A stretch of 20,042 nucleotides of DNA from a virus, in the IMG/VR virus record IMGVR_UViG_3300025759_000935, positions 1-20,042 of that record; one strand, written 5' to 3'. The translations under genes and the position numbers were made by a program. The notes beneath the pieces were generated by a model. The model saw only the letters and a list, made by a program, of their open reading frames with translations, was not told the origin of the DNA and did not search any database. Every line of letters starts with the position of its first letter. The first letter of the stretch is position 1. Shown here piece by piece: positions 12,605-20,042 of the stretch.

Positions 12605-12656
12605 CGTTTACTGCTAGACACACCTACCCCCTTGTGTTCTGATTAACATTGAATTT

Positions 12657-12761
12657 CTACTCTACCGTCTTTAGCCTTTGCGGGGACATTTCTATCAGCC
12701 TATAGTCTAACTCCCGCCTAGAGTTTTATATCAATGCACTTTGCGTAGCTATCGGGGACAT
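12657..12761 (-). repeat. Duplicated motif starting two mini-ORFs (MSP...)
   Basis: On the minus strand the string ATGTCCCCG occurs twice, 72 nt apart, each with a purine context (GAG or GAA before ATG). Each opens a tiny frame: 12761 to 12726 (11 residues, MSPIATQSALI) and 12689 to 12657 (10 residues, MSPQRLKTVE). A perfect AACTC/GAGTT stem lies between them at 12709-12725. They sit upstream of the fibre gene and could be leader peptides or part of a structured 5' leader. Translation is unproven. Confidence 0.3.
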
Positions 12762-13026
12762 CTCAACCGCTATGTTCGTCTATTATTACAAGACTGCAGT
12801 CTACAACCCGACTTCTGACCCTCTACTGTCCGTCTGGTCCTCAAGGGTGATAACACATGGGGGTGTTGCCACTTAAGCTGCAAGTATACAAAAAATTATT
12901 GGGGGAAAAATTTTTAGTTGGGGGTATTTTCGAATGCGTGGACCTATATATTCAAAGACCCCACCATACTTGTGGCATTGAACGTATCCCCCTGCAAAAT
13001 TATACGCAGCATGGGATGCGCAACAA

Positions 13027-15504: not shown

Positions 15505-16107
15505 ATGAAAAACATGATTAACAGCGGTTCACTCAGCACCCTCAAAGCTGGGAACTCACTCCTCGTTCACGCACGTCGTGTACAAGGTGGTAAATTGCAA
15601 TTGGAGTTGGCAGAGGTCATTACCTCAGCGAATGCTACCCCCAATTTGATTTCCATGTTCAACAAATCCGACTCCCGTTTCTCACAACAGGGTGCACGTC
15701 GGGCTTGGCAATCAGTAGAACCTACTGACGCAAGCGAATTGTTGGGCATTGACTTGTCAGATTCTAACCCCGGTTGGATGACTGATGATCGAGGTCGTGA
15801 GGTTCTTCCTCTGAACATTCTCAACCCATCTGTTGGGGAAGGTTCAGTACTTCGTGTACGTGTGTCAGAGACCACTGTACCTACTCCTTACCAAGCTTCT
15901 AACCTTGAGACAGAGGCTAAGCGTAAGGGTCGTGACGGTGACTTCATCCTGCACAAAGGTCAGTACATCTTCAGTAACACCGAGTTTGCACTCAGCACTC
16001 CAGGTGGTACCGTAGACCATGTACTTTTGGAGGCTGATGCTGCACCTGCAGCTGGTGTCACTCAGACACAAGCCGCCTCAAGTCCTTTTACGGACATTAA
16101 CTCGTAA
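15505..16107 (+). CDS. Unknown 200-residue protein (possible ssDNA-binding role)
   Basis: ATG at 15505, but a Shine-Dalgarno-like AGAAGGA (15496-15502) is only two bases away; the second ATG at 15514 gives 11-nt spacing and may be used. The product has a beta-rich N-terminus (GSLSTLKAGNSLLVHARRV, GKLQLELAEVI), a polar middle with RRAWQSVEPTDASELLGIDL, a charged EAKRKGRDGDFILHKGQYIF region and an Ala/Thr-rich C-terminal tail ending AASSPFTDINS. The layout (beta core, flexible tail) and place before DNA polymerase could fit a single-stranded DNA-binding protein, but the tail lacks the usual acidic DDIPF end, so this is speculative. Confidence 0.7.
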   Translation: MKNMINSGSLSTLKAGNSLLVHARRVQGGKLQLELAEVITSANATPNLISMFNKSDSRFSQQGARRAWQSVEPTDASELLGIDLSDSNPGWMTDDRGREVLPLNILNPSVGEGSVLRVRVSETTVPTPYQASNLETEAKRKGRDGDFILHKGQYIFSNTEFALSTPGGTVDHVLLEADAAPAAGVTQTQAASSPFTDINS

Positions 16108-16118
16108 GAGTTACAAGG

Positions 16119-16142
16119 TGTAGGGGGTTGAACTCCCCTACA
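16119..16142 (+). terminator. Hairpin downstream of the 15505 gene
   Basis: TGTAGGGG (16119-16126), loop GTTGAACT, CCCCTACA (16135-16142), a perfect 8-bp stem followed by TCTTC. Most likely the terminator of the 15505 gene; it may alternatively be the first helix of the structured RNA that follows. Confidence 0.65.
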
Positions 16143-16690
16143 TCTTCACATGCGGCTATTAACCGCTAGTGTGCCACACATGAGAGAAGCAGAGTGATAA
16201 CTGCAGTGGAAAGCATGCCCGTAAGGCGTACGTGCTATCAGATTTTCAGGATACCTGTTAGACTATGAAACATTAGCGCCAGCTAAAGGTGGAGTCATCC
16301 TTGAGATAGCAGGAGTCTGGCGTACGTCGGGGCATTAACTTATTAAAGACAGACAGCGAGCTATACAACCAAGAAGTTGGGCAGCCTAAGCCTCAACTGA
16401 GGATGCTTGTTGTTAAAAACCTCTGAGAGTAAATCAGGGGTTGCTACAGTTGGTTACTGTAGTATCTGCAGCTAGAGTCGCGACTAGTAAACGCGGAGAA
16501 AGATGGACTAACCGCCCGAGATATGTGTAAGTACAGCATATCTGCTAAAATTGTGCTTAACAGTGCCAAACATACTGTAATCCTGAACTAGTTGTCTACT
16601 AGTATCAGGTGGCTATTATACGTTGCTTGGATATAACGTAGAGCTTCACCTTGAGCATTTGCACTTGTTGCATTTGCTCATAGGTGTTGC
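16143..16690 (+). ncRNA. Candidate large structured non-coding RNA
   Basis: About 550 nt without a plausible ORF but full of helices on the plus strand: GCGG/CCGC (16152-16166); a three-way junction closed by TGCTATC (16233-16239)/GATAGCA (16305-16311) that encloses CAGG/CCTG (16247-16257) and GACT/AGTC (16261-16296) capped by TTAGC/GCTAA (16273-16286); CCTC/GAGG (16391-16402); AACCTCTGA/TCAGGGGTT (16418-16442); CTACAGT/ACTGTAG (16444-16462); AGATATG/CATATCT (16519-16543); CCTGAACTAGT/ACTAGT-A-TCAGG (16582-16609); TACGTT/AACGTA (16619-16640); and a layered hairpin CACCT, GAGCA, GCA with their partners (16647-16686). Size, ornate folding and location near tRNAs in a phage recall the GOLLD/ROOL class of large ornate RNAs, but I cannot assign a family. 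Ends are approximate. Confidence 0.7.
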
Positions 16691-19409: not shown

Positions 19410-19491
19410 GCCGGTATGGTGAAATTGGTAGACACGCTAGACTTAGGATCTAGTGCCCAAAAGCGTGTGGGTTCGAGTCCCTCTACCGGCA
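19410..19491 (+). tRNA. tRNA-Leu (UAG)
   Basis: 82 nt cloverleaf. Acceptor GCCGGTA/TACCGGC is 7 bp perfect; D-arm GTGAAATTGGTAGACAC; anticodon arm CTAGA-CTTAGGA-TCTAG gives anticodon UAG; a class II variable arm; T-arm GGG-TTCGAGT-CCC; discriminator A. CCA is not encoded. It reads CUA/CUN leucine codons. Confidence 0.95.
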
Positions 19492-19504
19492 CGAAGTTTT
19501 ATAA

Positions 19505-19580
19505 TTAACCGACTCTGGTTAACGTAGACTACTTCAGATTTTGGTGAAGGCAGGGATGCAACGGTGTCCCTGCTTTATTT
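19505..19580 (+). terminator. Two hairpins and a terminator between tRNAs
   Basis: Three perfect stems in the gap after tRNA-Leu: TTAACC/GGTTAA (19505-19522), CTTCA/TGAAG (19532-19549) and GCAGGGA/TCCCTGC (19550-19573), the last followed by TTTATTT right before tRNA-Arg. The last is a plausible terminator, though the tRNA begins at once, so it could be a processing signal or small RNA end. The first two could be parts of a small RNA. Confidence 0.55.
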
Positions 19581-19654
19581 GCTCCCTTAGCTCAGTTGGA
19601 TAGAGCAACGCACTTCTAATGCGTAGGTCATAGGTTCGAATCCTATAGGGAGTA
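19581..19654 (+). tRNA. tRNA-Arg (UCU)
   Basis: 74 nt. Acceptor GCTCCCT with AGGGAGT (a G-T at 1:72), D-arm AGCTCAGTTGGATAGAGC, anticodon arm ACGCA-CTTCTAA-TGCGT with anticodon UCU, T-arm ATAGG-TTCGAAT-CCTAT, discriminator A and no encoded CCA. It reads AGA/AGG, often rare in hosts and common in phages. Confidence 0.93.
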
Positions 19655-19659
19655 CAAAT

Positions 19660-19761
19660 AATCGTGAGTCCATTGGTTGGAGGCACCCCCCCAAGGTTGA
19701 GTAACAGCAAGGCTGACTCTGTATGGAAAAGCTGGAATAGGTTCGAATCCTATCACGATTA
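19660..19761 (+). tRNA. Oversized tRNA-like gene with non-canonical middle
   Basis: 102 nt. The acceptor AATCGTG/CACGATT (7 bp) and T-arm ATAGG-TTCGAAT-CCTAT are perfect and a short D-arm-like TCCA/TGGA is present. No 5-7-5 anticodon arm is found: the D-arm is followed by seven C, then by a nested hairpin GAGT-AA-CAGC-AAG-GCTG-ACTC (19698-19720), then TGTATGGAAAAGCTGG. The nested hairpin may be an intron-like insertion or a replaced anticodon arm. It lies between tRNA-Arg and another oversized tRNA-like gene. Amino acid identity cannot be given; it may be a decayed tRNA or a tRNA-like RNA. Confidence 0.6.
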
Positions 19762-19766
19762 CAAAT

Positions 19767-19900
19767 GTCAAGGTGGCGGAATTGGTAACGCCTGTGGGTT
19801 AGCTACCACAGAAAAAAGGAAAGGTTATAAATGTTTTTGACAAGTGTACATAGTCTTAAACTACCGACCCCGATTGCAGGTTCGAGTCCTGCCCTTGACA
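19767..19900 (+). tRNA. Oversized tRNA-like gene (Leu-like, about 50 nt insert)
   Basis: 134 nt, five bases after the previous one. Acceptor GTCAAGG/CCTTGAC, D-arm GGCGGAATTGGTAACGCC (leucine-like) and T-arm GCAGG-TTCGAGT-CCTGC are all perfect, discriminator A. After the D-arm comes CTGTGG-GTTAGCTA-CCACAG (19792-19811), a 6-bp stem with an 8-nt loop instead of 7, then about 60 nt of A/T-rich sequence including AGTCTTAAACT, which contains a UAA (Leu) anticodon-like triplet in a CTTAAAC context. An intron or insertion in the anticodon region of a Leu tRNA is the simplest reading. Exact splice points cannot be set by eye. Confidence 0.6.
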
Positions 19901-19926: not shown

Positions 19927-20042
19927 ATGAATTTTGGAGAAGCAATTAAAGCATTGAAAGCTGGTCAAAAAGTAGCCCGTGAAGGCTGGAACGGAAAAGG
20001 GATGTTCTTGATCCTGAACGGGGATACTCTGTACCCGCAAAG
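19927..20042 (+). CDS. DUF2829/Tad2-like anti-Thoeris protein, partial (5' 38 codons)
   Basis: ATG at 19927; the frame runs off the right edge. The visible product starts [20 protein letters not shown] and continues [18 protein letters not shown]. The opening MxFGEAIxALKxGxKVAR and GWNGKGMFL are the hallmark of the DUF2829 family, which includes Tad2 proteins. Tad2 homologues bind and sequester the cyclic ADP-ribose-type signalling molecules made by Thoeris defence systems, blocking the host response. The start follows the tRNA cluster by 26 nt (AATAAACCAATAAAAATGT leader), placing it among early accessory genes, as expected for counter-defence. The family assignment is strong; anti-Thoeris activity of this protein is inferred, and only about half the domain is in view. 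Confidence 0.85.

Follow-up and report, generated by a model that had tools for sequence, protein, structure and literature searches.

Two consecutive tRNA-like genes in a phage tRNA cluster retain the acceptor stem, the T-arm and the D-loop GG of a tRNA, and in both of them other RNA stands in place of the anticodon arm. We consider the chances about even that they represent a class of phage-encoded non-decoding tRNA-like RNAs, in which the acceptor/elbow half is selected and which would be matured by the host and punctuate phage transcripts. The observations behind this reading are the intact arms, compensatory changes, fixed intergenic sites on the gene strand and hypervariable inserts; from these features of the sequence we infer the processing, charging and function of the RNAs.

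The genes lie in a window of 20,042 bp, a linear IMG/VR record. Since its terminase and portal match phrog_6681 and phrog_6547, the window is, by gene content, a fragment of a crAss-like phage, and its host, judging from relatives, probably belongs to Bacteroidota: the terminase is ∼42% identical to those of gut crAss-like phages, and Flavobacterium and Cellulophaga phages are also among the matches. The tRNA cluster has a DNA polymerase gene (PF00476) upstream and comprises, in this order, the ordinary tRNA-Leu(TAG) (19410-19492, + strand; ARAGORN, Rfam 58.6 bits), the ordinary tRNA-Arg(TCT) (19581-19655, + strand; ARAGORN, Rfam 73.5 bits), gene 1 and gene 2; downstream of it lies a Tad2-like gene (PF11195, anti-Thoeris; Pfam 3.1e-13). 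A GC hairpin with a T tract (about 19551-19580) is located directly 5' of tRNA-Arg(TCT). The Tad2-like gene begins at 19927 on the + strand (19927-20040) after an A-rich leader of 26 nt and runs off the window end; its portion in the window (19927-20042) directly adjoins the tRNA-like genes.

Gene 1 (19660-19761, + strand), recognised from the sequence and by a strict scan for acceptor and T-arms, measures 102 nt including the discriminator A73 at 19761. Its acceptor AATCGTG/CACGATT (19660-19666 and 19754-19760) is paired at 7/7 positions and the stem of its T-arm ATAGG-TTCGAAT-CCTAT (19737-19753) at 5/5, while the D-like arm TCCA-TTGGT-TGGA (19669-19681) has 4 bp round a 5-nt loop. The anticodon arm is replaced by ∼55 nt, which include a nested hairpin GAGTAACAGCAAGGCTGACTC (GAGTAACAGC-AAG-GCTGACTC; 19699-19719, + strand) seen in the sequence and by RNAfold. 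Gene 2 (19767-19900, + strand) is 134 nt long and has a Leu-like body. Here too the acceptor GTCAAGG/CCTTGAC (19767-19773 and 19893-19899) is paired 7/7 and the stem of the T-arm GCAGG-TTCGAGT-CCTGC (19876-19892) 5/5, with A73 at 19900; the D-arm GCG-GAATTGGTAA-CGC (19776-19791) consists of 3 bp (GCG/CGC). In place of its anticodon arm there is a hairpin CTGTGG-GTTAGCTA-CCACAG with an 8-nt loop (19792-19811, + strand; sequence and RNAfold), followed by a hypervariable segment of 64 nt that extends to the T-arm (19812-19875, + strand) and has no sequence match in relatives. The inserts have MFE z values of +1.4 in gene 1 and -1.4 in gene 2. An earlier note on this DNA had described two consecutive oversized genes of these lengths, with perfect acceptor and T-arms, an interrupted or replaced anticodon region and a nested hairpin in the first, and all of this holds. 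The D-arms, also called perfect there, contain the GG of G18G19 in both genes, but the word is generous for stems of 4 and 3 bp; the 8-nt-loop hairpin of the second gene was correctly described, with about 50 extra nucleotides that we count as 64.

Run without introns, ARAGORN calls only tRNA-Leu(TAG) and tRNA-Arg(TCT), and gives no cloverleaf for either gene. With introns allowed, as the note had proposed, the program fits gene 2 poorly, as a tRNA-Lys(ctt) whose intron would be 54 nt long, and it recovers gene 1 only when the threshold is so relaxed that 20 kb give 120 intron calls, which amounts to noise; the anticodon stems fitted by ARAGORN are mismatched. The Rfam tRNA model (RF00005) scores gene 2 at 40 bits (cut-off 29), and gene 1 is missed both by this model and by default ARAGORN. 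Both genes have the 7-bp acceptor, the 5-bp T-arm with a TTCRA loop and the D-loop GG of RF00005-type tRNAs, and the canonical anticodon arm (5-bp stem, 7-nt loop) is absent from both according to the sequence, ARAGORN and RNAfold. Excision of candidate introns yields no canonical anticodon arm common to the orthologues. Rfam models of group I/II self-splicing introns have no match in the window or in the loci of seven relatives, and the tmRNA covariance models of Rfam have none above the cut-off in the window and the relatives' loci.

The polymerase and two ORFs, of 71 and 200 aa, served as queries to gather relatives of the phage. The strict scan required 7/7 acceptor pairs (at least 6 of them Watson-Crick), a 5/5 T-stem closed by G-C, a TTCRA loop and a length of 45-299 nt. 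Applied to 1.4 Mb, it recovered, besides ordinary tRNAs, a large number of non-canonical elements, every one of them on the + (gene) strand. Shuffled sequence is expected to give 0.2 hits per 1.4 Mb, so the two genes of the window are not due to chance. The relatives contain about ten kinds of non-canonical element, 56-181 nt in length: F1 (56 nt; L093, L095, L096, L177), F2, beginning TAGTGC (86-112 nt; seven phages), F3 (80/117 nt; L096, L097), F4 (94 nt; L090), F5, which has a D-arm and no anticodon arm (65 nt; L097:3064), F6 (69 nt; L056), F7, perhaps a remnant (76 nt; L099), F8 (77/95 nt; L093, L172), F9 (L085, L091) and F10 (71 nt; L055), in addition to the Leu-like family of gene 2. F9, F10 and the F2 element of L095 come from a looser scan allowing one acceptor mismatch. 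Under this looser rule, whose control gives 2.6 hits per Mb, only a subset of the contigs of 14 relatives carry non-canonical elements, and the remaining contigs have ordinary tRNAs, chance-level hits or none. All elements except L099:6309 have GG at the G18G19 position; in several families nucleotide 73 is C or T and the body is minimal. Exact patterns from both window genes and a looser gapped pattern for gene 2 found no match in IMG/VR. Gene 1 has no sequence orthologue in the relatives; only its D-arm, CCATTGGTTGG, resembles another element, recurring at the same place in L097:3064.

Other repeated sequences were observed among these elements. A similar TGTAG...GAGCTACA hairpin is present inside L093:2302-2405 (F2) and L097:3816-3932 (F3), as if mobile. 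A noncoding element with a divergent interior, closed by an 11-bp stem (12-bp in L097) GATAACACAGC...GCTGTGTTATC, was found at L005:4353-4527, L006:8402-8587, L067:2148-2344, L013:6573-6708, L093:2172-2295 and L097:2952-3055, in the last two phages between tRNA-like elements. A short conserved element TACCTCGTC...GACTGTT...CAGCAGGTCACCGACACCTGTGAGGTA without an Rfam match lies in the tRNA cluster at L003:4038-4095, and between tRNA-Met and tRNA-Arg in L009 and L067.

Several elements occupy the same site, marked by orthologues of a 200-aa ORF (15505-16107 in the window, + strand; tblastn) that has no Pfam match. The element begins 36-37 nt downstream of the ORF's stop codon in L172, L177, L093, L097, L096, L090 and L186, and ∼41-53 nt downstream of it in L091, L085 and L115, as read from the sequences. 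The layout of the site is a GC hairpin and T tract, then the element, and mostly then an A-rich leader and the next ORF. The acceptors at this site differ (ATCTCAC, ATCTCAG, CACCATG, AACCGTG, CACCGTC, AACCACG), and over six distinct rows, each from a different phage, 97% of the cells are paired and 9/12 acceptor and T-stem pairs are doubly changed; sliding the partner by 1-3 columns leaves 40-52% paired. No structure is common to the elements between their arms, nor do they share a mature anticodon arm. At the same site the window has a noncoding stretch of ∼570 nt instead of an element, and other relatives are also without elements there, so the elements are not essential. This stretch (16108-16690), which has no long ORF and separates the 200-aa ORF from the polymerase region, is probably a large structured RNA. 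L087 contains blocks 75-78% identical to it, set apart by an insertion of some 560 nt, and Rfam gives no match on the stretch. Another noncoding region of the window, 12605-13000, contains DNA blocks 72-81% identical in many relatives.

Gene 2 belongs to a Leu-like family with 17 other members. These include L004:5422 and elements in L189, L195, L196 and L216, and their body is close to AGTCAGGTGGCGGAATGGTAGACGC...ACAGGTTCGAATCCTGTCCTGACTA. The body is nearly invariant, being the same in contigs from several metagenomes, and A73 is present in all members. The inserts between the D-arm and T-arm range from 20 to ∼130 nt and are unrelated in sequence; the 17 inserts are modestly structured (mean MFE z about -1.2), a fold common to them was not found, and H-type pseudoknots were noticed in several by eye only. 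Over nine distinct arm sets, including gene 2, 99% of the cells are paired and 8/12 pairs are doubly changed; most members of the syntenic and Leu-like alignments were found by a scan that itself requires pairing, L115 and L223a having been found otherwise. Degenerate, unconserved copies in relatives, which the earlier note would have counted against its reading, are not what the arms show: they are conserved with compensatory changes, and it is the inserts that are not conserved. A search for the 5' half pattern in 84,980 species genomes returned only five metagenome-bin contigs with two or three copies each, two of them with phage-type genes (DUF932/phrog_12094 in L226 and a phage sigma factor, phrog_351, in L224). 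Because neither one Leu-like member (blastn against 50,697 phage records, E 0.01) nor the 200-aa ORF matches phage records, no isolate with a known host can be identified. An antisense-guide role was considered and rejected: when 13 inserts were compared with the genomes that carry them, the longest matches measured 9-12 nt, no different from shuffles.

Among the three readings offered earlier, tRNA-like RNAs with another role fit best. The tRNA elbow is recognised by RNase P, RNase Z, the CCA-adding enzyme and LeuRS (PMC4810234). Selection would keep the half recognised by the host maturation enzymes, that is, the 7-bp acceptor, the T-arm and the D-loop GG of the elbow, while the anticodon arm would have been lost or swapped for fast-changing hairpins. 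The elements sit immediately behind 3' hairpins and ahead of A-rich leaders, a position that fits the processing of long transcripts. Host RNase P and RNase Z would cut the elements precisely from long phage transcripts, and CCA would be added; the preceding mRNA or structured RNA would be trimmed close behind its 3' hairpin, and the next gene's A-rich leader would be freed. This would leave a stable small RNA, possibly a stable carrier, whose variable domain may have a second role.

Pure punctuation leaves the near-invariance of the Leu-like body across phages unexplained. This constancy, together with the exchangeability of the inserts, calls for a further role, for example as a stable scaffold or a decoy. 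We offer only tentatively the idea of a widespread class in which the fixed Leu-like body is a natural scaffold for exchangeable, fast-evolving RNA payloads in the position of the anticodon arm, several per genome, acting against host defences or steering host tRNA-binding enzymes. Decoys for anticodon nucleases, as suggested earlier, are a poor fit, since what these RNAs lack is precisely the anticodon loop; decoys for enzymes binding the acceptor or elbow are possible. That the elements are decoys or sponges for enzymes that target the acceptor, tail or elbow of tRNAs (LeuRS, EF-Tu or tRNA-targeting defences), and have shed the anticodon arm so as not to decode, seems rather unlikely to us. 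LeuRS may charge the Leu-like members; the bacterial enzyme ignores the anticodon. Their near-invariant body and A73, the adjoining Tad2-like anti-defence gene and inserts changing fast enough to suit an arms race are all consistent with decoys. tRNAs encoded by phages are known to protect against tRNA-targeting defences (PMC10264068, PMC11555353), and nucleases that cut tRNA tails include Cas12a3 of Bacteroidetes (PMC12851939). Against this, the families with C73 or T73 and a minimal body fit less well, the one tested phage tRNA rescue requires its anticodon and stems (PMC11555353), and positions resembling punctuation are not predicted.

The hypervariable inserts and the variable presence of elements among relatives would also be expected of decaying tRNA pseudogenes that had lost the anticodon arm and persist by chance; L099:6309, without the D-loop GG, may be a true remnant, and gene 1 has no orthologue to compare. 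We regard this as improbable for the elements in general, since both stems stay paired with 8-9/12 pairs doubly changed, and in divergent phages the elements lie at almost the same distance behind one ORF. It is very improbable that the genes are tRNAs with short introns removed by a phage or host splicing system, a reading the note had listed and which rests on introns that ARAGORN can fit, of 54 nt in gene 2 (Lys(ctt)) and of 22 nt in L004 (Leu(tag)). Apart from the mismatched stems and the lack of self-splicing intron matches, the syntenic members give no common anticodon, and members of 56, 65 and 69 nt fall below the length of a canonical tRNA and so leave no room for an intron; in L196:4031 the arms are separated by a 16-nt hairpin and 4 nt, and the whole 69 nt is shorter than a normal tRNA-Leu. 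Bacteroidota hosts, moreover, are not known to possess the archaeal-type splicing endonuclease, which counts against introns. Decoding by an odd anticodon loop, such as an 8-nt loop reading four bases, is hardly credible: the 8-nt loop GTTAGCTA on its 6-bp stem in gene 2 and TAATTGTA in L196:4031, given a 4-bp stem, could be read in this way, but a hairpin the size of an anticodon arm is absent from most relatives and 64 extra nt follow the one in gene 2.

The anticodon arm is also reduced in mascRNA and the MEN-beta element of mammalian lncRNAs. As in mascRNA, the phage acceptor and T-arm are under compensatory selection and the anticodon arm is dispensable. In both mammalian cases a small tRNA-like element recruits RNase P for the maturation of its neighbour's end (for the principle, PMC4810234); processing has been shown there, whereas in the phage elements it is predicted. 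The tRNA-like structures of plant RNA viruses (TYMV type) likewise mimic the acceptor and elbow with other folds elsewhere (PMC4810234), but they are part of genomic RNA 3' ends, whereas the phage elements are separate, intergenic, encoded by DNA phages, and have a genuine T-arm, the D-loop GG and an acceptor closed as in tRNA. With phage-encoded tRNAs, including anti-defence ones, the elements share the cluster, the body and a 3' end without encoded CCA; those tRNAs have an anticodon arm (PMC10264068, PMC11555353), and the elements, without a canonical arm, would not decode. tmRNA similarly combines tRNA-like ends with other RNA in place of the anticodon arm, but the Leu-like members have a 3-bp D-stem and no Rfam tmRNA match over the family cut-off.

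We found no earlier description of such an RNA class in the open-access PMC literature. If real and recurrent in crAss-like phage genomes, the class would account for some of the 'unusual' tRNAs called in phage tRNA arrays, as tRNA finders drop such elements or misread them as introns. The role of phage tRNA clusters would then become testable beyond decoding, in transcript punctuation, RNA stabilisation and anti-defence.
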